This document shows positions 23,601 to 38,054 of a DNA stretch of 64,000 nucleotides, piece by piece; the first letter of the stretch is position 1, and every line of letters starts with the position of its first letter. This DNA comes from Terriglobia bacterium (GTDB taxonomy: Bacteria; Acidobacteriota; Terriglobia; Terriglobales; Acidobacteriaceae). The stretch is taken from the NCBI GenBank assembly GCA_020072815.1, contig JAIQGE010000012.1, positions 1 to 64,000 of the forward strand. Direction: 5' to 3'. The position numbers were made by a program, and so were the translations under genes. The notes under the pieces were generated by a model. The model worked only from the letters and a program-made list of their open reading frames with translations, ran no database searches and was not told the origin of the DNA.

Positions 23601-24342
23601 CGCTGTTTTCCAACAACAACAGGCGCTCTATTGCAGAACGCATGTTAGTTAACGATTTAATACGCCTTTGTTCGTCATTGTCAAATGGTTTTATGCGTAT
23701 GCGTGACTCGCTCTTGACGAGACACACTAGAGCGCGATGGGCCGCCCATGCCGGCTGGGGAGGCCGTCTTCACAACGCGCGCCAGCAAAGTCGTGCATAT
23801 GGCGCCGAGGACCGCCAGCCCAAGCTGACGGAAGCACCGCAACCTGTGAAATACGGAGTGCTCACCATCGGCTATTCCACCCCCGAACGCACGAGGGTAT
23901 CCGGCTCTCTCCGCTGTTGCCGTCATTCTTATCCGGGTAAGCTAAGGTCAGATAGCTCTCTTCGTTTTCTGCTAAGTACAATCTCTAAGCAAGCCCATGA
24001 TCCGGTTCATAGCTAGCGTATAGGTTTCTGAAGGCGTCGCCCCAGGGTGCCATTGCGGGTAGCCAGGGCCGCTTCTTGCGAGCTAAGTTATTGGTTTTTA
24101 TGGCAAAACATTGATCGGCTATTACCCCACTCCAGCGAGAGCGTGTGGGTTAATTTTCTCTAAGACTAGTTTCGGAGAGACCCAGACCTAGAGACTGAAC
24201 CTTGATTCAGCAGACCACATATTCCCATTTTGGAACTAGAATCTGAATTAATGGATCAAAATGAAAACTAAATCGAGGTAACAAACCACAAGTCTGCTAT
24301 TGTGGGGCCGCCGCTCCCCCTTCAAGTCGAGAGACTTTCACT
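23601..24342. other. 742-bp divergent intergenic region before the biosynthetic cluster
   Basis: No supported gene. The region serves the modA operon on one side and the biosynthetic cluster on the other. The only notable element is the TTCCCA..TGGAA inverted-repeat box at 24219-24239. The 124-codon frame at 23642-24016 has no ribosome-binding site or family features. Confidence 0.45.
24219..24239. promoter_or_regulatory. Candidate operator in front of the biosynthetic cluster
   Basis: Contains TATTCCCATTTTGGAACTAG, an imperfect inverted repeat, about 104 bp before the first gene. It matches 16 of 21 positions of the palindromic box at 38305-38325 by my alignment. The regulator is unknown. 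Confidence 0.4.
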
Positions 24343-25857
24343 ATGGCAGATCAGTCGCAACTTGTTGCTTCTTCAACTGCGGTAGTCAATGTCAATGCGC
24401 AGAACGGCGCGTTTCCCGTCGCCGCAAGACAATCTCAAGCAAAGCCCGCCGCCAACGAAGCGGTTCCCGCCATTCTTCTTGAAGACTCAACGGTTTTTGA
24501 GTTGTTCCCTGTCGTAGTACGAACTATCAATGACGCCGAGTGCAACATTGTGCGCGTAGGCGCTCCGGTCCTTACCGCGATCTCAACTTCTTCCATCGGG
24601 CTTGAGGCGGTGCGTCTCTTTCAAAGCGGCCACTCGGTTGGCGCGGTGAAGGCTGCGCTGGGGGAAAAACACGACAGCTCGGCGACCGACCTTTCTCCCC
24701 TCATCACCGCGCTACATAAGGCGCGAATCATCCGTCGCGCCGGTGGAGTCCTCATCTGCGACGAAGCGCCCAGTGCCTGGAAAGTTTTCACCCAGAAATG
24801 CGAATGGGCGGGCTTTGCGGCGCGGCGCGCTACGGTTGGCGCTCTTCTGAAGTACCTGCCGCTGCCCATGTCCTATTCGATTCTGTTTCATGCCCGTCCC
24901 CGATGGCCGCGGGCCAAGCGTCTTGGGGCATTGCACCTGACCCGGCAGAACCTCCAAGGCGTTTTCGGCAGCTCTCTTTTGCCGCGCCAGGTGGACAGAA
25001 TCGCCCAAGACTTCATTTCTGAGCAGATACGGCGCGATCTGGACATCGAGATACTGAATGCCTTCTCCGATCTGAAGGTAGCCAGATGGATACGGCGGTC
25101 GTGCACCATCTCCGGCCTGGAATACCTGAATGAAGCGTTGTCCCGGAAGCAAGGTGTGTTGTTGTCGAGCTTTCACTTCAGTTCCGCCCATCTCATCATT
25201 CTGGTGCTCTGGTTGCACGGATACTCCTTCACCGGCGCAGGCGGCATCACGCGGGCCGCGAACACTCGAGTTCTGCCCTTTGACAATCCCGAGCTTCAAG
25301 CGCAACTGGGTGGATGTGGGAAGGTGAAATGGTTCAGCCACTTCAATTTTGACAGCGTTCTGGCCATGTGCAAGGCGCTGGAAACTGGCGGCATGGTCCT
25401 GGTTTATCCCGACAGCATCTGGACCCGCCCTGCCAAGCAGGTGGCCAAATATTTCGGACACGGCGCCGCCCAATACCGGCCGGCACGGACCATGGTGCCT
25501 TTCCTGGGCCAAAGAGCGGAAGCCAACAAGGGCGTACCCTGGATTTACAAGCAATCGCAAGCGCCGCTGATCCCATTGAAGCTGGTTCGCCTCTCCAACA
25601 GCCGTTTCCATTTGTCCATTGGCCCCGAACTCAAATTAGACCGCCAGGCTTCTGTCGAAGCCATTGCCGCAGAGCTGTACCGGGCGCTTGAGCGGGAGGT
25701 ATGTACCGATCCAGCGGCATGGTCTTATTGGCGAATTCTTCATCAGTTCTTGATTTCTGGTGACTCACCAGCAGGTGAATCAACGGGGAAGGAACCAGCG
25801 AGGGAAGCTGATCTGGGTCCTTCTGCAAGCGGCCCCACTACGAAGGAAAGGAGATAA
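24343..25857 (+). CDS. PqqD-like/RRE domain fused to LpxL/HtrB-type acyltransferase
   Basis: 504 residues. An N-terminal PqqD-like winged helix (about 45-130: VFELFPVVVRTINDAECNIV, then SPLITALHKARIIRRAGG) precedes a lysophospholipid-acyltransferase domain (about 240-480). PqqD-like domains bind peptide leaders in RiPP pathways. In the acyltransferase the motif is H278-FSSA-H283, where LpxL/HtrB members usually have HX4D or HX4E, so the charge relay is altered. The neighbouring small peptide and acyl carrier protein make transfer of an acyl chain to a peptide plausible, though unproven. Start ATG 24343; first gene of the cluster. Confidence 0.8.
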   Translation: MADQSQLVASSTAVVNVNAQNGAFPVAARQSQAKPAANEAVPAILLEDSTVFELFPVVVRTINDAECNIVRVGAPVLTAISTSSIGLEAVRLFQSGHSVGAVKAALGEKHDSSATDLSPLITALHKARIIRRAGGVLICDEAPSAWKVFTQKCEWAGFAARRATVGALLKYLPLPMSYSILFHARPRWPRAKRLGALHLTRQNLQGVFGSSLLPRQVDRIAQDFISEQIRRDLDIEILNAFSDLKVARWIRRSCTISGLEYLNEALSRKQGVLLSSFHFSSAHLIILVLWLHGYSFTGAGGITRAANTRVLPFDNPELQAQLGGCGKVKWFSHFNFDSVLAMCKALETGGMVLVYPDSIWTRPAKQVAKYFGHGAAQYRPARTMVPFLGQRAEANKGVPWIYKQSQAPLIPLKLVRLSNSRFHLSIGPELKLDRQASVEAIAAELYRALEREVCTDPAAWSYWRILHQFLISGDSPAGESTGKEPAREADLGPSASGPTTKERR

Positions 25858-25860
25858 CTC

Positions 25861-25986
25861 GTGAAAGACAATCTAGTCGTTGACGCAGTCTCAATGTCAG
25901 TTGAGACAGTAGAACTGGAAGATGTCGAATTGATGGAAGAAAGCTTCGCGGCTTCTTCTGACACCAACAACGTCGTTGCTGCTTAA
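25861..25986 (+). CDS. 41-aa acidic peptide, candidate RiPP precursor
   Basis: GTG start preceded by AAAGGAGATAACTC, one of the best ribosome-binding sites in the cluster, and only 3 bp after the acyltransferase stop. The middle is strongly acidic (ELEDVELMEESFAASS) and the tail is short, with Ser, Asp, Thr and Asn (SSDTNNVVAA). There is no Cys and no membrane segment. An acidic leader with a small polar tail, between two proteins carrying PqqD-like domains, is how ribosomal peptide precursors are usually placed. It could also be a short structural or regulatory peptide. Confidence 0.6.
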   Translation: MKDNLVVDAVSMSVETVELEDVELMEESFAASSDTNNVVAA

Positions 25987-26048
25987 CTAACCGTTTCGCA
26001 ACTGGGAGCCGCGGCCACGGGCCTTGCGCTTGTGGCTGCGCTTTCCCG

Positions 26049-27278
26049 TTGTGCTTTAAGAACGCGCTTACAAACCGCCGGGGGTCTCCGGCGAAACAAA
26101 AGTCCCAAGGTTCTAGTTTGCAACAACAACACAATTCGCAAGCCATTAAGCCGGCGTTGGCTGGGCCACTGGGCGCATGGGAGTTGTTTCCCGGAACGCA
26201 TGTGCTGGGTATACGCGCACTGGACCGCTACATTCAGGCGCCTAGTGAGAAGTGCGAAGCGATTCAGCACGCCCTCTCCGCCATGGACGGCCAACATACT
26301 CTGGAGGAGATTGCGGACTCGCTGCGTTCCGCAGGCTGGGCGATGGACATGCAAGGTCTTTACCGCAAAGCAGCCGGCGCAGGTCTGATCGAAGGTATTC
26401 CCTTCGTGGGCGATATGAGTCGGGTCTCCTTGCGGCTGCTGGAACTGAACATCGAGCGCTTCTTCCGCAACGCCGTTTGGATTCGCAGGCTCTATCCGCA
26501 GTTGGCGTGCCTGCCGTTCCTGGCCATCACCGGCGCGATCACCACATTGTTTTACTCTGGAGTCAATTTCCTTCATCTGGCACTACCCAAAGTCTGGCGG
26601 CCTATCGGAGCGGAACAATGGATCGCGGTATTCGCGGGCATTCTGCTCTCCATCTTGTTGCACGAAGGCGCCCACGCTGTCACGGCGACCAGGTATGGCC
26701 TGGTGCCTTCGCGCATTCGTTTGCTTGGCTATCTTGGATTCATTCCCTATCTGGTGCTTTCGATACCCGGTCTGTACACTGTGCCTCCCAAGGCGCGGCT
26801 GAAGATCTGGGGGGCAGGGCCTCTGGGCAGCCTGATGGCTGCTTCGGTGGCGCAAATCGGCGCCGCTTTGGTGGGCCCAACCGGATTCCCTCACCTATGC
26901 CTGTCTACGCTCGCGCAAGTCAATCTCTTGGTCGCGATCTGGAATCTTTGCCCTCTGGTGCCGACCGATGGCTATTTCATCCTGTGTACTCTGGTTCGTT
27001 CTCATAACCTCCGTTTCCATGCCTGGAGCGCGATCGCGGACGTGTTTCGCCTGCGACGCAGGCCTTCGATGGTACTGATCATCTTCGGGATTCTGAGCGT
27101 GGGGCTGCTGGCCATTTTGTGGCAAAGGAATGTCTCCAGAATTCTGCACTTCTTCTCTCATTCTGTGTTGGGCTATGTGGTGATCGCGGCAGTCACGATT
27201 CTCTTGATTGTCCGCCAGATAATGCTTGTCTCCGCGCGCAAGTCGGCGATGGAAGCAGCGCAGGGGAGCAAATCATGA
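26049..27278 (+). CDS. PqqD-like domain fused to M50-type (site-2) membrane metalloprotease
   Basis: 409 residues, or fewer if translation starts at TTG 26118. A PqqD-like winged helix (about 45-115, LFPGTHVLGIRALDRYIQAP) precedes a polytopic M50 domain. The zinc motif is HEGAH (HExxH), and NLCPLVPTDG supplies the third ligand region (NxxPxxxxDG). Four to six hydrophobic segments surround it. Related proteins occur in peptide-maturation loci, where they may cut or export a leader-bearing peptide. It starts 62 bp after the 41-aa peptide, and its stop overlaps the ketosynthase start. Confidence 0.82.
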   Translation: MCFKNALTNRRGSPAKQKSQGSSLQQQHNSQAIKPALAGPLGAWELFPGTHVLGIRALDRYIQAPSEKCEAIQHALSAMDGQHTLEEIADSLRSAGWAMDMQGLYRKAAGAGLIEGIPFVGDMSRVSLRLLELNIERFFRNAVWIRRLYPQLACLPFLAITGAITTLFYSGVNFLHLALPKVWRPIGAEQWIAVFAGILLSILLHEGAHAVTATRYGLVPSRIRLLGYLGFIPYLVLSIPGLYTVPPKARLKIWGAGPLGSLMAASVAQIGAALVGPTGFPHLCLSTLAQVNLLVAIWNLCPLVPTDGYFILCTLVRSHNLRFHAWSAIADVFRLRRRPSMVLIIFGILSVGLLAILWQRNVSRILHFFSHSVLGYVVIAAVTILLIVRQIMLVSARKSAMEAAQGSKS

Positions 27279-28507
27279 GCGCGGATCCAATCGTAGTTAC
27301 AGGACTGGGGCTTGTTACCCCCATCGGGACTGGCAAGAAAGAGTTCTGGGCAGCGCTCTTGCGGGGCGAGAACGGGATTCGCCCCATCCGCACTCTTGAC
27401 ACTTCTTTGTACCGCACGCACCGCGGAGGAGAAGTCCAGGACTTTTCCCCTGAACCGTATTTCAAGAATACCAGCCCGCAAAATGTTGGACGCTGCGCCC
27501 ATCTGGCCGTGGCCGCAAGCCGCCTGGCTTTGGAAGACAGCGGCATTGACCTCAACAGTGTTCAGCCTGCGCGCGCAGGCGTGGTATGCGGCACCACCAT
27601 GGGTGAAAGCCCCACCGCGGAAAAACTCGATACCTGTATCGCATCCGGAGACATGCAAGCAGCCAGCGCCGTGGACATGTTCCAGTTCCCTTCAGAAATG
27701 GTGCCCATTGCGGTGGCGCGTGAATTCGACTGGAGCGGTCCGGCCAGCATCATGTCTACCGCTTGCGCCGCCAGCAATTACGCCATCGGCTATGCTGCTG
27801 ATCTCTTGCGCATGGGCGTGGTTGACCTGATGGTTGCCGGCGGATCAGACCCGCTCTCGCGCGTGGTGTTTACGGGCTTCAATTCCATGTTGGCGGTCGC
27901 GCCGGAACGCTGCCAGCCCTTCGACCTTCATCGCAAAGGCATGTGCGTGAGCGAAGGATCAGCCATGCTGGTCCTGGAACGCGCCAGCCATGCTCGCCGG
28001 CGCGGCGCACCGATTTACGCTGAAGTGGTTTCCTACGGTACGAGCAATGATGCCTACCACATGACCGCGCCCCATCCTCAGGCCAGGGGAGCAGTGCGGG
28101 CCGTACAGCAGGCATTCCGGGAAGGGCAGGTGGCGGCCGACAGCATTGACTACATCAGCGCCCACGGTACCGGGACGCCCGCGAACGACAAGATTGAAAC
28201 CATGGCCATGAAGCGTGTCTTTGGCGACGCTGCTTATTCCATTCCCATGAGTTCCATTAAATCCATGCTGGGCCACACCATGGGAGCAGCGGGAGCGATT
28301 GAAGCGGTGGCCAGCATTTTGGCGATTCAAAATAACGTGCTGCCGCCGACCATTAACTATTGTGAGCCTGATCCTGAATGTGATCTGGATTACGTACCCA
28401 ACCACGCGCGGGATAAGAAGGTCCGTACTGTGCTGAGCAATTCCTTCGCCTTCGGAGGTAATTGTGCGGCGCTGGTATTGCGCGAATATTCGACCAACGG
28501 TCACTAG
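27275..28507 (+). CDS. Beta-ketoacyl synthase, KS-alpha/FabF-like
   Basis: 410 residues with the complete thiolase-fold active site: Cys164 in STACAAS, His297 in SAHGTGT and His334 in GHTMGAAG. It would condense malonyl-ACP units on an acyl chain. The ATG at 27275 follows CAGGGGAG and overlaps the protease stop by 4 bp. The next gene is a catalytically dead homologue, so the two resemble the KS-alpha/KS-beta heterodimer of type II polyketide synthases rather than housekeeping FabF. Confidence 0.9.
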   Translation: MSADPIVVTGLGLVTPIGTGKKEFWAALLRGENGIRPIRTLDTSLYRTHRGGEVQDFSPEPYFKNTSPQNVGRCAHLAVAASRLALEDSGIDLNSVQPARAGVVCGTTMGESPTAEKLDTCIASGDMQAASAVDMFQFPSEMVPIAVAREFDWSGPASIMSTACAASNYAIGYAADLLRMGVVDLMVAGGSDPLSRVVFTGFNSMLAVAPERCQPFDLHRKGMCVSEGSAMLVLERASHARRRGAPIYAEVVSYGTSNDAYHMTAPHPQARGAVRAVQQAFREGQVAADSIDYISAHGTGTPANDKIETMAMKRVFGDAAYSIPMSSIKSMLGHTMGAAGAIEAVASILAIQNNVLPPTINYCEPDPECDLDYVPNHARDKKVRTVLSNSFAFGGNCAALVLREYSTNGH

Positions 28508-28516
28508 AGAGCCATC

Positions 28517-29716
28517 ATGCGGAGAATCGTTGTAACCGGAATCGGTCTGGTGCTGCCCCTGGGAACGGGGAAAGAGCAGGCGTGGCAGGCCTTGTGCGCC
28601 GGGCAGGACGGCGCCTCTGATGTCTCAACCTTTGACACTGCCGGGCTGGGAACGGTGAAGGCCGCGGAGATCAAAGATGTAAGCCAATTGCGCGGACGCA
28701 AGAGCGTTTGGGCCGTGAGCCGCGGAATGATCATGGGGTTCGCCGCCGCCAAGCTTGCTCTGGAAGATTCGCAAATCACCGTCACTCCGGAAAATAAGGA
28801 CAACATTGGCGTGGTTTACGGGTCAACATTCACAGGTTTAGCTCCCTTGGCGAAATTTGATCAGGAAGCGTTGCGCAACGGGCCTCGTATTGCCGATCCG
28901 CTGATGTTCCCCAGCACAGGATCGAGCGCACCCGCCTGCCAGGTGTCCATCGTGCTGGGAGTAGACGCATTCAACACCACATTGTCGAATGGCCAGACAG
29001 CCAGCTTGGATGCCATTCAGTACGGAATGCAATTCATTGAACTGGGCCGCGCCACCACAGTCTTGGCCGGAGGCGTGGAAGACCTGTGCTTCGAGCGTTT
29101 CTTTGGTTACCACACCCAGCAACTGCTTGCCGATTCAGCGGCCAGACCGTTCGATTCCGCGCGCACCGGCATGCTCCTGGGCGAAGGCAGCGCCGTCTTG
29201 GTGCTGGAAGACCTGGATTCCGCCAAGCAACGCCAGGTCCCGATCTATGCTGAGATTGCAGGCTACGGCGCCTATCTGACGCCAAAACCGGAAGAAGCCA
29301 GTGAGATCAATGCTGCTGTGCAATCCATGGGAAAGGCCTTGCAGCAGGCGGGCATGCAGCCGAGCCAGATTGACGCTGTTTTTGCCGGCGGCAATGGCAG
29401 CCACATTGGCGACTTTGTTGAAGCCCGCGCCCTGGCTGAGCTGTTCCAAGGCAGCGTTCCCAGCCTCACCGCGGTGAAATCCATGCTGGGAGAAACTTAT
29501 AGCGCCGCCGGGGCCATTCAAAGTGCCGTGGCGGCCCTGTCGCTCTATCATCAAACCGTCCCTGGCACCATTCACTTTAGCCAGCCGGACCCGTTATGTC
29601 CGGTTGCCTCAGTCGTACAAACCACACAACCCAAAACCATGTCTTCCGTCATGGTCAACACCTTCGGAAGCACAGGAAACTTTGCGAGTCTCATACTAAA
29701 AAGCTATGAAAACTAA
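28517..29716 (+). CDS. KS-beta / chain-length-factor-like ketosynthase homologue
   Basis: 399 residues with the ketosynthase fold but no catalytic triad. The active-site Cys is Gln160 (LSNGQTAS), the first His is Gly291 (AGGNGS) and the second His is Glu326 (LGETYSAAG). Cys-to-Gln is the mark of chain-length factors, which pair with an active KS and set chain length. It begins 9 bp after the active KS. The protein diverges throughout from its partner, so this is an old paralogue and not a recent copy. Confidence 0.88.
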   Translation: MRRIVVTGIGLVLPLGTGKEQAWQALCAGQDGASDVSTFDTAGLGTVKAAEIKDVSQLRGRKSVWAVSRGMIMGFAAAKLALEDSQITVTPENKDNIGVVYGSTFTGLAPLAKFDQEALRNGPRIADPLMFPSTGSSAPACQVSIVLGVDAFNTTLSNGQTASLDAIQYGMQFIELGRATTVLAGGVEDLCFERFFGYHTQQLLADSAARPFDSARTGMLLGEGSAVLVLEDLDSAKQRQVPIYAEIAGYGAYLTPKPEEASEINAAVQSMGKALQQAGMQPSQIDAVFAGGNGSHIGDFVEARALAELFQGSVPSLTAVKSMLGETYSAAGAIQSAVAALSLYHQTVPGTIHFSQPDPLCPVASVVQTTQPKTMSSVMVNTFGSTGNFASLILKSYEN

Positions 29717-30309: not shown

Positions 30310-30561
30310 ATGGAGGAACAGATTCGCAGCACGTTGACCAAGGCCGTCTCTGAGTTTCTTGAGCAGCCGGAAGAGTCCATTGATTGCTCCGCTGAACTGG
30401 CTGACGTAGGTGTTGATTCATTACAGGCAGTGCAGCTTCTGGTCTTGCTGGAGCGGACCTACCACATTGAGATCAGCGAAGAAGAGTTGAAAAACTTTAC
30501 CTCCATTGATTCCATTGTGGCCCGTATATCCAAGCATCCCAAGATCGCGGTTCGGGCATAA
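30310..30561 (+). CDS. Acyl carrier protein
   Basis: 83 residues with the phosphopantetheine site at Ser37 in VGVDSLQAV, an acidic first half and four helices. It is not the housekeeping AcpP by context, since it lies between cluster genes. It would carry the growing chain for the KS pair, dehydratase and reductase. ATG 30310 is 4 bp after the previous stop; the frame extended upstream overlaps that gene. Confidence 0.92.
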   Translation: MEEQIRSTLTKAVSEFLEQPEESIDCSAELADVGVDSLQAVQLLVLLERTYHIEISEEELKNFTSIDSIVARISKHPKIAVRA

Positions 30562-30567
30562 CGGCGG

Positions 30568-31056
30568 ATGAAACAAGTGCAATCTTCCCCGTCCCCGGCG
30601 TCAACTGCCCCGGTGCTGGGTTTCGAACAGATCCGGGACATCATGGTCCACCGCTTTCCGTTTCTCATGCTGGACCGCGTGACTGTCCTGGAAAAGGGCT
30701 CGCGGCTGGTTGCGATCAAGAACATCACCGGCAACGAAATCTGGTTTCTCGGGCATTTCCCCAAGCAGGCGATCATGCCCGGCGTTCTCATGATTGAAGC
30801 CATGGCCCAGGCGGCTTCCTTGCTCGATACCCTCAGCCGTGACGATGTGCATCCCGAAGCGGCCAGGTATCTGGGCCGCGTGGAGGCGCAGTTTCAGCGC
30901 ATGATCGTGCCGGGGGACGTCATGGAAATCGAGGTGGTTTTGCTGAAGCAAATCAGCTACGCCGTGATTGCCAAGAGCCACGTTCGCGTGGACGGAAACA
31001 TCGCGTGTTCCGCGGAACTGATGCTTGGGACCAAGGCCCCAGACCGGGAGAAATGA
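30568..31056 (+). CDS. FabZ-like beta-hydroxyacyl-ACP dehydratase
   Basis: 162 residues with a hot-dog fold. MVHRFPFLMLDRV and FLGHFPKQAIMPGVLMIEAMAQ match FabZ, with the catalytic His in GHFP and Glu in MIEAMAQ. The N-terminal 15 residues are an added flexible segment compared with usual FabZ. It starts 6 bp after the acyl carrier gene. It would remove water from beta-hydroxyacyl intermediates. Confidence 0.9.
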   Translation: MKQVQSSPSPASTAPVLGFEQIRDIMVHRFPFLMLDRVTVLEKGSRLVAIKNITGNEIWFLGHFPKQAIMPGVLMIEAMAQAASLLDTLSRDDVHPEAARYLGRVEAQFQRMIVPGDVMEIEVVLLKQISYAVIAKSHVRVDGNIACSAELMLGTKAPDREK

Positions 31057-31065
31057 CCGGGAGAA

Positions 31066-31821
31066 ATGACCAGCCAACCCATTCTGACCCTGCAAGGCAA
31101 GACGGCCATTGTCACCGGTGGAAGCCGGGGGATCGGCCGGGCGATCGTGGACTGCCTGCTCGCGCTGGATGCGCGCGTGGTGTTCACGTATCTGCGTCCC
31201 CGCGACAACCAGGAAGAACTGGCGCGGAACGGGCACGCGGATAGCGTGCTGGCCATCCAGGCTGATGTGCGGGAGAGCGCTTCTGTCTCCCAGGTGATGG
31301 AAGCTGCACACAACAAGTTCGGCGGCGTGCAGATCCTGATCAACAATGCAGGCATTACTCGCGATACGGCCATCCGGACCATGACAGAGCAGGATTGGGA
31401 CGACGTAATGGACACCAACCTGCGCGGCGCTTTCCTCTCCACCAAGGCGGTAGCGCCGTTGTTCATGCGCCAGATGTACGGACGCATCATTAATGTGACG
31501 TCTATCAGTGGAACGCGGGGGGTGGCCGGCCAGAGCAACTACTCGGCGGCCAAGGCGGGCATGATCGGGATGACGAAATCTCTGGCGCGCGAGTTCGCGC
31601 CTTTCAACATCACCGTAAACGCGGTGGCACCGGGATTTATTGAGACGGAAATGCTGAACCCGCTCACACCCGCTTACCGGACGAAAATGACCCAGCAGAC
31701 GCCCATGCGGAGGTTCGGTTGTCCGGAAGAAGTCGCCAAGGTCGTTAGCTTCCTGGCTTCAGACGCCGCCAGCTATATTACCGGGCAGGTGCTGAGCGTG
31801 GATGGCGGCCTCGGCATCTAG
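31066..31821 (+). CDS. FabG-like beta-ketoacyl-ACP reductase
   Basis: 251 residues, classical SDR. NADPH site TGGSRGIGRA, NNAG in INNAGITRD, catalytic Ser in VTSISGT, YxxxK in SNYSAAKAG. The close match to FabG and the position between dehydratase and hydratase genes indicate reduction of beta-ketoacyl-ACP. The upstream gene ends in a repeated CCGGGAGAAATGA, so both possible starts lie in a duplicated stretch; the second ATG, 31066, is the SDR start. Confidence 0.92.
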   Translation: MTSQPILTLQGKTAIVTGGSRGIGRAIVDCLLALDARVVFTYLRPRDNQEELARNGHADSVLAIQADVRESASVSQVMEAAHNKFGGVQILINNAGITRDTAIRTMTEQDWDDVMDTNLRGAFLSTKAVAPLFMRQMYGRIINVTSISGTRGVAGQSNYSAAKAGMIGMTKSLAREFAPFNITVNAVAPGFIETEMLNPLTPAYRTKMTQQTPMRRFGCPEEVAKVVSFLASDAASYITGQVLSVDGGLGI

Positions 31822-31861
31822 GCGCGCCGAAAGGACGCGTTGCACAGTAAAAGGAGATTGC

Positions 31862-32407
31862 ATGACCCAATCAAAGCCCAAAATGCGAGCTGTCGTGGCA
31901 GTCTTTACCTTGTTGATTTGCGCCGTGGCCATGGTTGCCACCGCATCTACGCGTAACAAATCTGCCGGCAACAAATCTGCCGGCAACAAAGACGAGTCCA
32001 CAAAACAAGAAATCAACAAGACCTTCGATGACTACGTAACCGGCTGGAGAACCGGCAACGTCGAAATGCTATCGAAGATTTATGCGAATGACGCCAGGGT
32101 CTCCGCCTACTGGCCGGATCCCTCCCGTCCCGGGCTTCTGGAGGGATGGCCCAAGATTTCCAAGAACCTCAAAGACATTTTTGAACGCCTCCATGAAATC
32201 TCACCCTACGGAATGGATTTGGATTTCAATGACCGCATCATTGATCTTTACGGCGATACGGCAGTTCTAACCACAAGCTGGGTATGGAAGCATCCCGCAG
32301 ACCCTGCGTTCGGGACCGGACGCGGCACGTTCATTTTTCAGCGCCGCGGGTCCAAATGGGTCATTGTTCATGAGCACTCTTCCGTCACACCCTTTGACAG
32401 CAAGTAG
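31862..32407 (+). CDS. Secreted SnoaL/NTF2-like protein
   Basis: 181 residues with a signal sequence or membrane anchor (about 9-29). The mature part begins with a repeated NKSAGNKSAGNKDE linker, encoded by a 15-bp tandem repeat. The NTF2-like domain (about 50-180) has INKTFDDYVTGWRTGNVEMLSKIYANDARVS and a terminal GTFIFQRRGSKWVIVHEHSS. SnoaL-like proteins include polyketide cyclases and many binding proteins. Its export makes catalysis on a cytosolic ACP-bound chain unlikely. Confidence 0.75.
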   Translation: MTQSKPKMRAVVAVFTLLICAVAMVATASTRNKSAGNKSAGNKDESTKQEINKTFDDYVTGWRTGNVEMLSKIYANDARVSAYWPDPSRPGLLEGWPKISKNLKDIFERLHEISPYGMDLDFNDRIIDLYGDTAVLTTSWVWKHPADPAFGTGRGTFIFQRRGSKWVIVHEHSSVTPFDSK

Positions 32408-33242
32408 CATTGGAAAGGCGAATACGTTGGATCCTCTGGAATACTCGAGCCGCGATTCGATTGCGGAGGTGACCTTTATCGCTGGGTCGCTTCATCGCAG
32501 TTTCGTCGCCGCGCTGGCAGGAGCGCTGGATTGGCTGGACACCAAACCGGACATCAAAGCTGTGATTTTTGCCGGCAGCAAGAATGTTTTCATGTCCGGC
32601 GCTGATGTGCGCGAGGTCAGCAACTTGAACAGTGAGGCCGACGTCACTGATTTTCTTCGCCTCCCGCACCAGTTGATGGCCAGGATCTACAACATGAACA
32701 AGATCACCATCGCGGCGATCAACGGCTACTGCCTGGGCGGCGGCCTGGAAGTTGCCCTGGCATGTGATATTCGAATCGCGGCCAATGATCTAAAAGACTC
32801 CGCCGGAGATGAACTCGCGTTCATGGGCTTCCCCGAGGTAAAACTGGGACTGGTGCCGGCCCTGGGAGGCGCTTCCACTCTGGTGGCCACCATCGGACGT
32901 TCCCGTGCTTTGGACATTCTTTATAGCGGCCGGCTGGTAACTGTCTCCCGAGGCTTGGAGATCGGACTGGTGGATTTTGCTGTTCCCCGGAACCAACTTA
33001 TGGAAGAATCCCGCCGGCGGGCCGATGAGCTCTCCGCCAACTCGCAGCCGGCAACACAAAGTTTGAAGCGCCTGATCCAGTCGGCTTTGGTCCCGGAATA
33101 TGCGGGAACGTTACAACGGGCCAGAGAAGAATTTGCGTTTTGCTGCACCTCTGGAGACAAGAACCAGCGGCTTGAATTGTCACGGCAGATGCGGATTAAC
33201 AATTTCCGCCAAACATTAACCACGACAAAAACCAACGAATGA
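32370..33242 (+). CDS. Enoyl-CoA hydratase/isomerase (crotonase family)
   Basis: About 290 residues. The crotonase oxyanion holes appear as FMSGADVREV and INGYCLGGGLEVALACDIRIA. The Glu in FMGFPEVKLGLVPALGG aligns near the catalytic region. Crotonase relatives in polyketide loci act in chain branching or double-bond placement. Start choice is uncertain: ATG 32370 overlaps the previous gene by 38 bp, while TTG 32427 has AAAGG upstream and avoids the overlap. Confidence 0.85.
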   Translation: MSTLPSHPLTASSIGKANTLDPLEYSSRDSIAEVTFIAGSLHRSFVAALAGALDWLDTKPDIKAVIFAGSKNVFMSGADVREVSNLNSEADVTDFLRLPHQLMARIYNMNKITIAAINGYCLGGGLEVALACDIRIAANDLKDSAGDELAFMGFPEVKLGLVPALGGASTLVATIGRSRALDILYSGRLVTVSRGLEIGLVDFAVPRNQLMEESRRRADELSANSQPATQSLKRLIQSALVPEYAGTLQRAREEFAFCCTSGDKNQRLELSRQMRINNFRQTLTTTKTNE

Positions 33243-33273: not shown

Positions 33274-35706
33274 ATGATTTTACCCAACAAGAAGGACTTG
33301 CAATATGCGTGGAGAGCGTTGATCCATGAGCCGCTCTTTATCTTGGCGGTTGTGCTGCCGCTGGCCCTGGGCATTGGCGCGAATACGGCGATCTTCAGCG
33401 TGGCAGATGCCTTGCTACGCCAGCCTTTGCCATTCGCAAACATGGACCGACTGGTGCTGATGACGGAAAGCTCGCCTCTGCGCCCCGACGGAAATTTTGG
33501 GGTCACGCCGGCCAACTATCTCGACTGGAAGGCGCAAAGCACGTCCTTTGAATCCCTGGCGGCTTTTTCTCCCGAGGAAAGCGGGTTGACCGACTCCGGC
33601 GTTCCGGAAGCAATCACCGCAGCCAGCGTCACCAATAACTTTTTCTCCACCCTGGGCATCGTGCCCCTTAAGGGAAGGTTCTTCTCCGGCGGCGAGGTGA
33701 CCGGAGACCAGGAGAACGGCGTTGTCTTGAGCTATGGCTTCTGGGAGCGCAAGTTCGGCGCCAAGCCGGACGTTCTGGGCAAGGAATTGACGATTGATTC
33801 GGTCAAATACACGGTCATCGGCATTCTGAAAAAAGGGAGCGGCTTCCCCGTGAACGCGGACCTGTGGAAGCCTCTGGTCCTGGGGCCGCGCGAAGTCCAG
33901 GACCGCAGCACGCATCGGTTTCAAATAATCGGGCGGCTCAAGCCTGGAACTGCCATCCCCAGGGCCCAGGCTGAAATGAAGGAAGTCACGGCCCAACTCG
34001 GAAAAGCCTACCCCGACACGAACCAGGGTTGGGGGGCGCACGTGTTTCCTCTGGGCGATTTCTTCAGCGGCGGACTTACCGCGCGCTACACCCTGTTGAT
34101 GATGGGCGCTGTGTTGTTTGTGCTGCTGATTGTCTGCTCGAATATCGCCAACCTCCAACTGGTGCGCGGAATCGTAAGAAAACGTGAATGGTCCTTGCGG
34201 TATGCGTTGGGAGCGAACCGCTGGCATGTGATCCGGATCCTTCTCATGGAGAGCATTGCGCTGGCCTTGGTCAGCGCCGGACTGGCAATCTGGGTGGCGA
34301 CCATCAGCCTGCGTCTGATTCGCGTCAACATGCCGGCCTCCATTGCCAGGTTCATTCCCGGTTTTGATCAAATCGCCCTCAACCAGCATGCCATGCTTTT
34401 TACGGTAGGAATCGCGGTTTTCAGCGGAATTGCTTCGGGCCTGCTGCCCGCGCTCTATTCGTCGCGCACTGACATCAACAAGGAATTGAAAGAAGGAGGC
34501 AAGGGTTCCACCACGGACCGGTCGCATCAGCGCCTGAGTTCGATTCTGCTGGTAAGCGAAGTGGCCGTCACTTTGATGCTGCTGGTTGGCACCGGCCTGA
34601 TGGTGCGCGGCTCGACTTCCATCCGGCAGAACTTCGCGGAGATGCGGCCTGAGCAAGTGCTTACGGCGCGGTTCCATCTTGGACCGCAGTATGTCCAGCC
34701 CGCGGCCTCCCTGAAGTTTTATCAGCGTTTGCTGGAACAGCTGGCCACCATTCCTGGTGTGTCTTCATCGTCAGTGGCCACCAACATCCCTTATGGTGGA
34801 CACGCCAGTACGGCGCCGGTCACGGTGCAGGGCGCTCCTCCCACCAAGGCGGGAGAGCGCAACTCCGTCATGGTCCAGATCGTGAGTGCCGATTTCTTTC
34901 ATACCATGGCGCTCCCGGTGCGGACCGGCAGGACCTTTCAGGCATCGGACGACGAGAATGCCGCTCCCGTGGTCATTGTCAGCAAGCAAATGGCACAGCG
35001 CTATTGGCCCCATCAGGACCCCATCGGACGGCAGCTTCAACTCGGTGGCATCACGGCGCCGACACCTTGGTTGCGAGTAGTCGGCGTTGCTGATGATATT
35101 CGCTACAACTGGCTGGACACGGACGCCGGCTACGTGGTCTACCGGCCGGTTCCCCAAGCGCAGCAGCGCAGCGCGTATCTGTTGCTGCGGACGCAAAGCG
35201 ATCCCCAGAACTTTGTGCGCGTCTTGAACCAGCGCGTTGGAGGAATTGACCAGGAGCAGGCGCTCTCGGAAGTGCAATCGTGGGACGAGGTAATTTCCCA
35301 GTCCATGATTGGCCTCTCTTACGTGCGGACCATGATGCTGGTCCTGGCCGTACTCGCTGTCGTGGTGGCCTCGGTCGGCATTTACGGGCTGATGAGCTAT
35401 ACGGTGGCGACCAAGCGCGAGGAGATTGGAATTCGCATGGCGCTGGGAGCGCAACGCAGGCAGATCATGAACATGATCATTGGCCGGGGGATGCTGATCA
35501 CCAATATCGGGCTGGCCATCGGCCTGCTCGGGTCCTTCGCTCTTACGCGCACTCTCGCCAGCTTGGTTTTCGGCATTAGCGCGCTTGATCCGTTGACCTT
35601 TGGCGGCGCGGCGGTCATCTTCATCGTTGTGGCGTTGATCGCGTCGTATCTGCCGGCACGTCAAGCGTCAAAGCTGGATCCGCTGAACGTCTTCAGGGCG
35701 CAATAG
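33274..35706 (+). CDS. ABC transporter permease, acidobacterial duplicated orphan permease type
   Basis: 810 residues. Two FtsX/MacB halves each carry a long periplasmic loop: residues 1-410 (IFILAV..LGIGANTAIFSVADALLRQPLPF, then FVLLIVCSNIANLQLVR) and 420-810 (LLVSEVAVTLMLL, then VASVGIYGLMSYTVATKREEIGIRMALGAQ). This twin-permease layout without an ATPase next to it is the ADOP family, abundant in Acidobacteriota. It may export or protect against a product, but it may also be an unrelated neighbour, since it starts 31 bp after the hydratase. Confidence 0.88.
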   Translation: MILPNKKDLQYAWRALIHEPLFILAVVLPLALGIGANTAIFSVADALLRQPLPFANMDRLVLMTESSPLRPDGNFGVTPANYLDWKAQSTSFESLAAFSPEESGLTDSGVPEAITAASVTNNFFSTLGIVPLKGRFFSGGEVTGDQENGVVLSYGFWERKFGAKPDVLGKELTIDSVKYTVIGILKKGSGFPVNADLWKPLVLGPREVQDRSTHRFQIIGRLKPGTAIPRAQAEMKEVTAQLGKAYPDTNQGWGAHVFPLGDFFSGGLTARYTLLMMGAVLFVLLIVCSNIANLQLVRGIVRKREWSLRYALGANRWHVIRILLMESIALALVSAGLAIWVATISLRLIRVNMPASIARFIPGFDQIALNQHAMLFTVGIAVFSGIASGLLPALYSSRTDINKELKEGGKGSTTDRSHQRLSSILLVSEVAVTLMLLVGTGLMVRGSTSIRQNFAEMRPEQVLTARFHLGPQYVQPAASLKFYQRLLEQLATIPGVSSSSVATNIPYGGHASTAPVTVQGAPPTKAGERNSVMVQIVSADFFHTMALPVRTGRTFQASDDENAAPVVIVSKQMAQRYWPHQDPIGRQLQLGGITAPTPWLRVVGVADDIRYNWLDTDAGYVVYRPVPQAQQRSAYLLLRTQSDPQNFVRVLNQRVGGIDQEQALSEVQSWDEVISQSMIGLSYVRTMMLVLAVLAVVVASVGIYGLMSYTVATKREEIGIRMALGAQRRQIMNMIIGRGMLITNIGLAIGLLGSFALTRTLASLVFGISALDPLTFGGAAVIFIVVALIASYLPARQASKLDPLNVFRAQ

Positions 35707-35798: not shown

Positions 35799-38054
35799 TT
35801 AAGAGAGCACTGTCTCGTACTCCTGATGAGCAACCCGTTCCGGAGAGAAACTGACATATCCCTTGCCGTGCAATGACATCAGCGTTTCACGCAGAGGTTC
35901 CTTGTGGACGGGATTGACGGCGTCCAGAAGCTCCCTGAGCGTTACCCTTCGGTCTGTTGCATGTACCAGGACCAAATAGACCAGTTCTGCGATCTTGAAA
36001 CGCTTTGCGTTCTGGATAATCCAGAATGACTTCTTCTCGTCACGCTCTATCGCCGCCACACCTTGCTGCCACTCCAGGTAGGCTTTGTAGGTGGCTTCAA
36101 TCGCCGAGTCTTTCATGTTCTTGACGTGCTCCCGGAGCTGGTCCCGGGCCTTGAATATCTTGCTGATCTCAAAGGCTGATGTGGCCAGCCTTCCTTCTAC
36201 CGTCACGGCACAATCAAGGACTTCATCGCTGGTTTGCGGCTTTCGGCTTCTCGCCGGCATCGCCACCGGGTGTTCTTTGAAGAATTGTCGTCCGAATTTC
36301 TGGTAGTAGATCATGGAATGAAGGGAATCCGTACCTCCGGCCCAGGGACGAGGAAGGACCTGGGGGAACAAGCCACCGGTTTCGTCAAACGATTCGTCGC
36401 CCTCTTCGGCGGAGAGCATTTGCCGTTCGCCTGCGACAGTTGATTGATAGCCCAGTGACCTGACGATATCGGCGTCCCGGGCTTCCGTCAGGCTGATCCC
36501 AAACTTCTCCGGGTTTTTCGCCACCAGCGCGGTCCCGGTCAGGACGAACTTACCGATGCCTCCCGTTGACCAACTGTCTTTGTGCAGTTGGACGAATCCC
36601 ATGGTCTCCTTTCTCTCCGTTTCCGTCTCGGTGGGAAAATGGCTGAAGGCCATGATTTGCACCGCAATGCCTGCATCGGCAAAGTTATTCATGGTCTCGC
36701 CCATATACTGCACCTTGGTGCCCTTATCAATCAGGTCGAGCACCCGCTGGTTCCCTGACTCCATGCCGAAGGAAACCGAAACACAGCCGCTCTCCGCCAT
36801 TTTCCGGCAGCGGTCCTTGGAAAATATCTTTTCCATGCGGAGCTCGGCGCCCCAGCGGATATTGAGGTCCGATTCCCTGATGGCATCTGACAGTCGCTCG
36901 AGATATCCGGGGGCCATTACATCCACGGCAAAATACACGTACGTGACATTTTCTTCTTTGGAGATCTTCTTCAGGTCCGCGACTACTGCGTCGGCGGTTT
37001 TCTCCCGCCACGGCGACGTAGGCTTGTCAGTGTTCAGGCCGTAATCACAGAACGTACAGCGGTTCCAGTAACAACCGCGGGTGGGCGAATAATTAATGCC
37101 CCTTTCAGGCGAGAGATACAGGTCCCATGAATGCTGGTACACGGGACAGCCCAACGCGGCGACATTCTCATAGTGAATGGACTTGGGAAGCCGAAGGGTG
37201 TCTGACTTTGAATCGTAAGTAATCAGGTTCGGGATCTTTTCATTCCCCTGGATATCGCCGCCGGCGTCAGCGATTTCGCATATGGCAGTTTCGCCTTCGC
37301 CCACTACGATTCCGTCGCAGACGTCAAAGAAGCGCTTCAATAGCGACTTATCTTTCAGATATTTATAGGCCTGGCTGGTAGCAGTGCCACCGAGCAAAAA
37401 CAGCTTCTCCGGCCAGCGTTTCTTCATCAGCCGCAATAGATGAAGCCCGGGCAGCAACTGGTGGTCATACACGATGCTCATGCCGATGCAGTCTGAAGAC
37501 AGCAAATCTTTGTCGCTCGCACATCTGTCAAAGAAGAATTTCTCTATCGGGTAACATATTTTGCTGCAGAGATCAGGGTTGAAAAGATCATTCAGGTGGT
37601 AAATGGAGTACCTGCCGCGGCTCTTCATCTTGAAGTCTTGAATCTCTGAGGGATAGCACAAGGCCCCTACCGTGCGGAAATGACGGCGCAGATGCTTGAC
37701 GGAGTCTCGATAGACGTCATAGTTGGTAAATGCTTCGCGGCTGCGCATGGTGGCCGCCGCCTGCTGTATCGCGCCCGGATCACCCTTTTCCGCCGACCAC
37801 AGGGAATAAAACTCCTCCTGTTCAGAAAAGCTCAACCCGCCCTGCAATGACAATGCGTCCAGCCGGTGCTCCACCTCATCCGACAAATCGTGGATGACGT
37901 CATCTTCAAGACAATAGTTAACGAACTCTACGTTCAGGTCACGGGTGGATATATTCTCAAACCCATTTTGAAGTAGATGCCCTCGTAGGTAGGCGGTAGA
38001 GTGATACGGAATAGTTGGGTCATCAAGCGGGGGATGGATGAAAGTGATCTTCAT
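35799..38054 (-). CDS. B12-binding radical SAM protein (751 aa)
   Basis: An N-terminal cobalamin-binding-like Rossmann domain (about 1-260, KITFIHPPLDDPTIPYHS; GLHLLRLMKKRWPEKLFLLGGTA) precedes a radical SAM barrel. The cluster motif is GCYWNRCTFCDYG, a CX4CX2C spacing in place of the canonical CX3CX2C. SVSFGMESGNQRVLDLIDKG is the conserved SAM-barrel strand. The C-terminal 90 residues look like a winged helix (RVTLRELLDAVN, then ETLMSLHGKGYVSF). Such enzymes methylate or cyclise unactivated carbons, including in peptides. It converges on the ABC permease gene. Confidence 0.85.
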   Translation of the reverse strand: MKITFIHPPLDDPTIPYHSTAYLRGHLLQNGFENISTRDLNVEFVNYCLEDDVIHDLSDEVEHRLDALSLQGGLSFSEQEEFYSLWSAEKGDPGAIQQAAATMRSREAFTNYDVYRDSVKHLRRHFRTVGALCYPSEIQDFKMKSRGRYSIYHLNDLFNPDLCSKICYPIEKFFFDRCASDKDLLSSDCIGMSIVYDHQLLPGLHLLRLMKKRWPEKLFLLGGTATSQAYKYLKDKSLLKRFFDVCDGIVVGEGETAICEIADAGGDIQGNEKIPNLITYDSKSDTLRLPKSIHYENVAALGCPVYQHSWDLYLSPERGINYSPTRGCYWNRCTFCDYGLNTDKPTSPWREKTADAVVADLKKISKEENVTYVYFAVDVMAPGYLERLSDAIRESDLNIRWGAELRMEKIFSKDRCRKMAESGCVSVSFGMESGNQRVLDLIDKGTKVQYMGETMNNFADAGIAVQIMAFSHFPTETETERKETMGFVQLHKDSWSTGGIGKFVLTGTALVAKNPEKFGISLTEARDADIVRSLGYQSTVAGERQMLSAEEGDESFDETGGLFPQVLPRPWAGGTDSLHSMIYYQKFGRQFFKEHPVAMPARSRKPQTSDEVLDCAVTVEGRLATSAFEISKIFKARDQLREHVKNMKDSAIEATYKAYLEWQQGVAAIERDEKKSFWIIQNAKRFKIAELVYLVLVHATDRRVTLRELLDAVNPVHKEPLRETLMSLHGKGYVSFSPERVAHQEYETVLS

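Follow-up and report, generated by a model that had tools for sequence, protein, structure and literature searches.

We propose that a 41-codon ORF, situated between the genes for an LpxL-type acyltransferase (ORF1) and an M50 metalloprotease in the 64,000-nucleotide stretch of acidobacterial DNA analysed here (herein referred to as the window), encodes the precursor of a polyketide/fatty-acyl-RiPP hybrid that is processed by the adjacent RRE-M50 protease. We assign a probability of roughly 0.6 to this reading, in which the attachment of the acyl chain is presumed, and regard the narrower statement that the ORF is a real RiPP precursor as likely. The peptide and both flanking genes share the + strand with the ketosynthase (KS) genes, in the order ORF1, peptide, M50, KS, second KS, redoxin-like, acyl carrier protein (ACP), FabZ, FabG, SnoaL-like, enoyl-CoA hydratase-like and ADOP permease (table 1). 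The ~740 bases 5' of ORF1 (window 23601-24342) contain no convincing gene and are a possible promoter region of the cluster.

Table 1. Features of the candidate cluster, in window coordinates (bit scores are given with the cut-off of the model).
Feature	Position	Strand	Basis
ORF1, LpxL/HtrB-type acyltransferase (PF03279) with N-terminal extension	24343..25857	+	Pfam 61 bits, cut-off 22.3
ORF1 N-terminal extension, possibly PqqD/RRE-like	24463-24768 (modelled)	+	low-confidence model
Shine-Dalgarno sequence AAAGGAG	25847..25853	+	7 nt before GTG
Candidate RiPP precursor, 41 aa	25861..25986	+	translation; leader similarity to relatives' short ORFs
Predicted stem-loop between precursor and protease genes	25997..26053	+	ends counted on dot-bracket string
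RRE-M50 intramembrane metalloprotease	26049..27278 (start putative)	+	NF041824 daptide_HExxH 86.3 bits, cut-off 300
PqqD/RRE-like region of M50 protein	~26148-26423	+	profile searches
HExxH of M50 protein	from 26661	+	conserved H205, E206, H209, D307
Ketosynthase	27275..28507	+	active-site Cys and both His present
Chain-length-factor-like KS partner	28517..29716	+	Cys to Gln, both His lost (alignment)
Acyl carrier protein	30310..30561	+	PF00550 56.3 bits, cut-off 20.8
FabZ-type 3-hydroxyacyl-ACP dehydratase	30568..31056	+	NF000582 140.5 bits, cut-off 113
FabG-type 3-ketoacyl reductase	31066..31821	+	NF009466 270.7 bits, cut-off 222; TIGR01830 288.4, below 297.75
SnoaL-like ORF	31802-32407	+	
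Enoyl-CoA hydratase-like protein	32364..33242	+	best model 144.6 bits, below cut-off 313
ADOP/MacB-like permease, possible exporter	33274..35706	+	TIGR03434 839 bits, cut-off 622
B12-binding radical SAM protein, related to RiPP C-methyltransferases	35799..38054	-	TIGR03975 81 bits, below cut-off 281.85

Translation of the ORF yields (V/M)KDNLVVDAVSMSVETVELEDVELMEESFAASSDTNNVVAA* from a GTG start, and the 41 residues, acidic part, polar tail and strong ribosome-binding site are all as an earlier note on this DNA had described them. The sequence AAAGGAG ends 4-10 nt before an ATG, GTG or TTG at only two places on the + strand of the 64-kb window (starts at 25861 and 31862) and at none on the - strand; the second of these starts is an ATG inside the SnoaL-like ORF and in its frame. 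The TAA stop of ORF1 (25855-25857) shares its reading frame with the GTG of the peptide and falls within the spacer of its ribosome-binding site, an arrangement as in coupled genes. The GC3 of the 41 codons is 0.46, below that of the larger neighbours. By sequence reading the peptide contains no hydrophobic segment, and it ends in ...VVAA. Residues 1 to about 31 are predicted to form the leader, with VETVELEDVELMEESFA as its recognition block, followed by a core of approximately SSDTNNVVAA (a boundary placed by alignment with daptide precursors and by daptide numbering with P at -1) that is short, free of Lys and without an obvious modification pattern. The 142-nt region of the stem-loop that follows has a predicted folding energy of -54.9 kcal/mol (z -1.88; equalled by 7 of 200 shuffles), which fits stronger expression of the precursor without proving it. 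Directly 3' of the peptide, in the M50 frame, window positions 25962-26060 read as the Cys-rich GPCACGCAFPLC; a frameshift into this stretch, which would resemble the tails of relatives described below, was considered and taken as chance, as the six frames of the window hold 11 separate 30-codon stretches with at least six Cys, GPCACGCAFPLC among them, and the stretch overlaps the predicted stem-loop.

The RiPP-leader interpretation draws chiefly on two genomes, G212 and G904, in which a radical SAM gene separates an M50 gene from a short ORF (76 aa in G212; 63 aa in G904, with a chosen ATG) whose tail contains Cys. The two short ORFs have LxVIDFxDxxxLEEAIAP in common, and their radical SAM proteins match PapB best among NCBIfam models (155 and 168 bits in G212 and G904, cut-off 340), with a SPASM domain that scores above its cut-off in G904 and slightly under it in G212. 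The set in G904 (locus L055, G904:C228, 1295-4389, - strand), comprising the Cys-tailed short ORF, the SPASM radical SAM and an RRE-M50, is an apparent separate RiPP cluster with sub-cut-off similarity to PapB ranthipeptide maturases; a second such set occurs in G212 (L032, G212:C155, the same record as L046; 10209-13364), where the precursor-like ORF ends in VCTKYGCICFGPK. The leader of the window peptide aligns with those of the relatives' ORFs gaplessly (VETVELEDVELMEESFA / LEVIDFGDLQVLEEAIA) and the tails differ. The alignment scores 41 against G904 (equalled in 0 of 2000 shuffles) and 34 against G212 (18 of 2000), and by mean BLOSUM score the leader ranks first among 816 window ORFs. As a control, 81 other loci were scored, after exclusion of 19 of the 100 loci with the cluster region, relatives or the daptide plasmid; a score of 29 or higher is reached by just three of their 4601 distinct ORFs, and two of these lie in L099, a locus that had been selected by its resemblance to a profile of the three peptides.

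Profile searches recover the peptide less readily. When an HMM was built solely from the G212 and G904 precursors and run against the genome that carries the window, the ORF was not among its matches at E<=10; within the window, this HMM placed the ORF second (whole peptide, E 4.7) and fourth (leader, E 12) of 1675 ORFs, and the E of 6.6e-15 returned by a profile that contains the ORF itself is circular. We therefore consider the leader resemblance to the G212 and G904 ORFs moderate: the RiPP-leader reading gains from the gapless acidic leader in two relatives, but not from the relatives' HMM, which misses the ORF genome-wide. The conserved acidic block with a variable tail that the earlier note had named as supporting a precursor is likewise seen against the Cys-tailed ORFs of G212 and G904, but in these two relatives only and with profile searches that are not significant. 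The daptide precursors of a Streptomyces plasmid and the window peptide also have NL...VELE..EL in common in the same order; this alignment, equalled by 31 to 110 of 1000 shuffles, is weak evidence on its own, and the daptide precursors score only 9.5-13 on the leader block of the relatives.

The protease has the daptide leader protease as its nearest named M50 model (daptide_HExxH, E 2.3e-24), and its Pfam M50 score of 24.5 bits lies slightly under the cut-off of 27.2. Several profile comparisons support an RRE at its N-terminus. A ten-row profile of M50 N-termini, the window's included, returned PqqD (3g2b, E 0.0014), PaaA (0.0047) and TfuB1 (0.011) as its top three PDB matches, the latter two of which we take to be RRE-type proteins; an earlier five-row profile had retrieved no RRE protein from the PDB at E<=10. 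Another profile, assembled from seven PqqD-type M50 N-termini but leaving out the window protein and its two close relatives, ranked a tile of the window M50 (from residue 69) first of 401 (E 0.0018). Those relatives came second and third, and slice 34-125 taken exactly reached no higher than rank 82 of 401; with the two relatives added to the profile, tiles of the window M50 took ranks 1-4 of 399. Taken singly, the hhalign probabilities are weak (6-16% in one test, 6% in a stricter one), and the M50 N-terminal alignment gave P 0.017 against the N-terminus of MpaP from the Streptomyces daptide plasmid. Among related M50 fusions of the phylum, six of six N-termini match Pfam PqqD at E<=10 and three exceed its cut-off. 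Frames of ~750-950 aa that fuse a PqqD-like N-terminus to M50 recur in the phylum (L059, L062, L063, L065, L067, L068 and L070).

Relatives of the protease were sought in overlapping samples of class, family and phylum genomes. Matches occur in 100 of 399 class genomes (E<=0.001), where only that of G212 is near full length besides the window's (query 34-392, E 2.7e-33), in six of 398 family genomes including its own (E<=1e-8), where one other, in G904, is nearly full length, and in 53 of 337 phylum genomes including its own (E<=1e-10), the others being partial and mostly in frames of ~570-1670 aa. Within their genera, G212 (one of five genomes) and G904 (one of 45) are alone in carrying an M50 relative. 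The G212 contig corresponds to JAKASX010000026.1, an Acidobacteria MAG record whose M50 translation is identical to the one from G212. Sixteen plasmid records match the window M50 over only 37-61%, viral contigs yielded no relatives, and a match in G133 to the N-terminal part looked spurious. No other genome searched holds full-length relatives of both ORF1 and the M50; five (G446, G553, G588, G628 and G684) show weak matches to each, on different contigs.

ORF1 found a match in one of 61 genomes, its own, and in 13 of 396 phylum genomes, namely its own and 12 with weak matches (25-32% identity) that do not reach residues 1-152; no plasmid record matched. An N-terminal RRE in ORF1 is possible. 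Its N-terminus matches nothing in Pfam or NCBIfam and ranks 86th of 399 and 242nd of 401 with the M50 N-terminal and PqqD-type profiles; a separate hhalign comparison gave P 0.04. An AlphaFold model of residues 41-142 (mean pLDDT 49.6) was superposed by VIA on PqqD 3g2b with Z 5.3 (55 residues, 2.4 A), on the TbiB1 RRE 5v1u_D with Z 5.3 and on the McbBCD complex 6gri with Z 2.2 (27 chains aligned, seven rows with Z>=2); the best Foldseek E was 3.0. The model derives from a three-row alignment in which two rows are M50 N-termini, which may bias it. The placement of the peptide "between two PqqD-like proteins" in the earlier note is thus borne out by half: the downstream M50 has profile matches, and for ORF1 the sequence profiles are negative and the likeness comes from a low-confidence model. 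The catalytic motif of lipid A/LpxL acyltransferases is HX4(D/E). ORF1 reads HX4H at this position, where all four judgeable relatives have HX4E (six of 11 other-genome loci were aligned, and two of these six were in the wrong frame or lacked the motif). With HX4H in place of HX4E, acyl transfer by ORF1 is a putative activity.

Downstream of the protease, a KS with its Cys/His/His residues is followed by a partner without the Cys, the pattern by which type II PKS KS/CLF pairs are recognised, and we treat the two as a putative KS/chain-length factor (CLF) pair. Among the PDB entries listed, both match 9s5h best (KS, chain 9s5h_B, 457 bits, next 316; CLF, 9s5h_C, 268 bits, next 194), and this entry may be the closest relative of the pair with a solved structure. 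No PDB entry matches the ACP at E<=1e-8. The scanned proteins include a ketoreductase and a dehydratase but no recognised separate enoyl reductase, which suggests an unsaturated chain. KS pairs in three class genomes (G084, G093 and G148) sit in other gene sets, and no M50 or ORF1 was noticed near them when the opening 70 residues of the ORFs were judged by eye. The B12-binding radical SAM gene beyond the permease may belong to the cluster. In one genus mate, its 48% relative adjoins a RiPP methyltransferase that truly belongs to TIGR03975 (653 bits), as well as a piece of Lant_dehydr_C; this locus (L090, G006:C39, 2180-7368), with two B12 radical SAM genes, one of them a clear TIGR03975 member, next to the Lant_dehydr_C fragment at the contig end, is a likely RiPP cluster of the genus mate. 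The C-terminus of the window's B12 radical SAM protein gave no notable hhalign match to an RRE and ranked 58th of 399 and 292nd of 401 in the profile tests; one tile of it ranked tenth with the profile that contains the M50 relatives (E 0.066).

We hypothesize that the acidic middle VETVELEDVELMEESFA is a recognition sequence to which the RRE of the neighbouring M50 protease would bind, and possibly the RRE-like extension of ORF1 too. The KS/CLF-ACP-FabZ-FabG set would build an acyl chain, and ORF1 would transfer it to the core of the leader-bound peptide, where, as the core has no Lys, the N-terminal amine of the core or a Ser/Thr side chain is the proposed acylation site. The M50 protease would then remove the leader by cleavage at about residue 31, and the permease may export the product. 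Core acylation by ORF1 with a KS/CLF-made chain is the simplest link among these genes. The earlier note's suggestion that the peptide could be the substrate of the whole cluster is nonetheless too strong, since its link to the PKS/FAS-like genes is read from gene order and the active site of ORF1 is non-canonical (HX4H). More tentatively, the cluster may represent a new hybrid class, in which a KS/CLF-made, polyene-like chain is put on a ribosomal peptide by an LpxL-family enzyme with its own leader-binding RRE-like domain and an HX4H in place of the HX4E/D dyad, after which the RRE-M50 protease frees the lipopeptide.

The strongest competitor, which we consider unlikely, is a RiPP precursor without acylation: the RRE-M50 would process the peptide, perhaps with modification by the B12 radical SAM protein, and the KS/CLF pair would make a separate polyene-like lipid chain that ORF1 attaches to a lipid. 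There is precedent in the E. coli aryl polyene cluster, where KS/CLF, dehydratase, ketoreductase and ACP occur with acyltransferases proposed, in the excerpted parts of the source, to anchor the chain to lipid (PMC8253772). The RiPP neighbourhood of the 48% relative of the B12 radical SAM protein speaks for this alternative too, as does an ORF1 RRE that sequence profiles leave unproven; against it, the ribosome-binding site of the peptide overlaps the ORF1 stop, the peptide is flanked by ORF1 and M50 and shares a strand with them and the KS genes, and the radical SAM gene, past the permease, is encoded on the - strand.

A pearlin-type scaffold, with a small molecule built on the C-terminus of the peptide and the M50 acting as a carboxypeptidase that releases the product, is quite improbable. 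The M50 proteases TglG and TmoG are described in the excerpted source as cutting modified residues off the C-terminus of a scaffold peptide (PMC10885120), and the tail of the window peptide is unremarkable enough to suit such a role, but no LanB-like amino-acid-adding enzyme was found among the nine cluster proteins scanned with Pfam and the further ones scanned, and the nearest named M50 model is that of a daptide leader protease. Equally slight is the prospect that the ORF and its ribosome-binding site at the ORF1/M50 junction both arose by chance: the failure of profile searches to recover the peptide and its low GC3 would suit it, but the rarity of AAAGGAG before a start in the window and the first rank of the leader block among the window ORFs argue otherwise. 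M50 proteases also process signal peptides, but a signal peptide or small regulator handled by the M50 in the manner of Eep, with no natural product involved, is the least probable reading of all, given the want of a hydrophobic segment, the RRE-like N-terminus of the M50, the RiPP setting in which relatives of the M50 occur, and the resemblance of the leader.

If the acyl-RiPP hybrid reading is true, ribosomal peptides would be conjugated to KS/CLF-made chains by the lipid A acylation enzyme family, without lanthionine or GNAT chemistry, in a rare mix of two natural-product pathways, and RRE-M50 proteases would serve several RiPP types in Acidobacteriota. The cluster is small and testable, with roughly six PKS/FAS-like genes besides the peptide, ORF1 and the M50. 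Searches of the open-licence literature found no RiPP cluster described as having an LpxL-type or RRE-fused acyltransferase, and the word acyltransferase occurs 0 times in two RRE papers.

Daptide clusters (mpaA-mpaP) have the leader motif ELExMEAP and an RRE-M50 fusion intramembrane protease that is said to remove the leader, and a figure legend of the same source lists acyltransferases (PF00583, TIGR01575) among the genes near daptide precursors (PMC10036551). Like daptides as they appear in the excerpted parts of that source, the window combines a short precursor bearing an acidic leader with an RRE fused to an M50 protease; unlike them, the peptide ends in Ala instead of the invariant C-terminal Thr (PMC10036551), and no MpaB (the RRE partner), PF00465-type oxidative decarboxylase, aminotransferase or methyltransferase (MpaC/MpaD/MpaM-type) was recognised among the cluster proteins scanned. 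PF13561 is the oxidoreductase type of Bacillota daptides in the same excerpts, and the PF13561 protein of the cluster is FabG-like and only a partial fit. Daptide membership was rejected on the missing C-terminal Thr, the unrecognised partner enzymes and an M50 score of 86.3 bits against a cut-off of 300.

Lipidated RiPPs are known, including lipolanthines, goadvionins, lipoavitides and selidamides, as is GNAT acylation of lanthipeptides, and the title of one paper cited in the same source names non-modular fatty acid synthases (PMC13060382). Like these compounds, to the extent that the excerpted source describes them, the proposed product would join a RiPP to a fatty or polyketide chain; unlike them, the window has an LpxL-family protein, a KS/CLF pair and an RRE-M50 protease. 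No GNAT or lanthionine synthetase was detected among the cluster proteins scanned, with PF03279 found instead of a GNAT Pfam match. The aryl polyene cluster of E. coli likewise has a KS and chain-length factor, an ACP, a dehydratase, a ketoreductase and an acyltransferase; unlike the window cluster, its gene table shows no precursor peptide or M50 protease (PMC8253772). The gene sets of G212 and G904 are like the window in their RRE-M50 of about equal size and their similar leader block; they differ from it in their radical SAM maturase and Cys-containing tails, and neither a KS nor an LpxL gene was noticed next to them.
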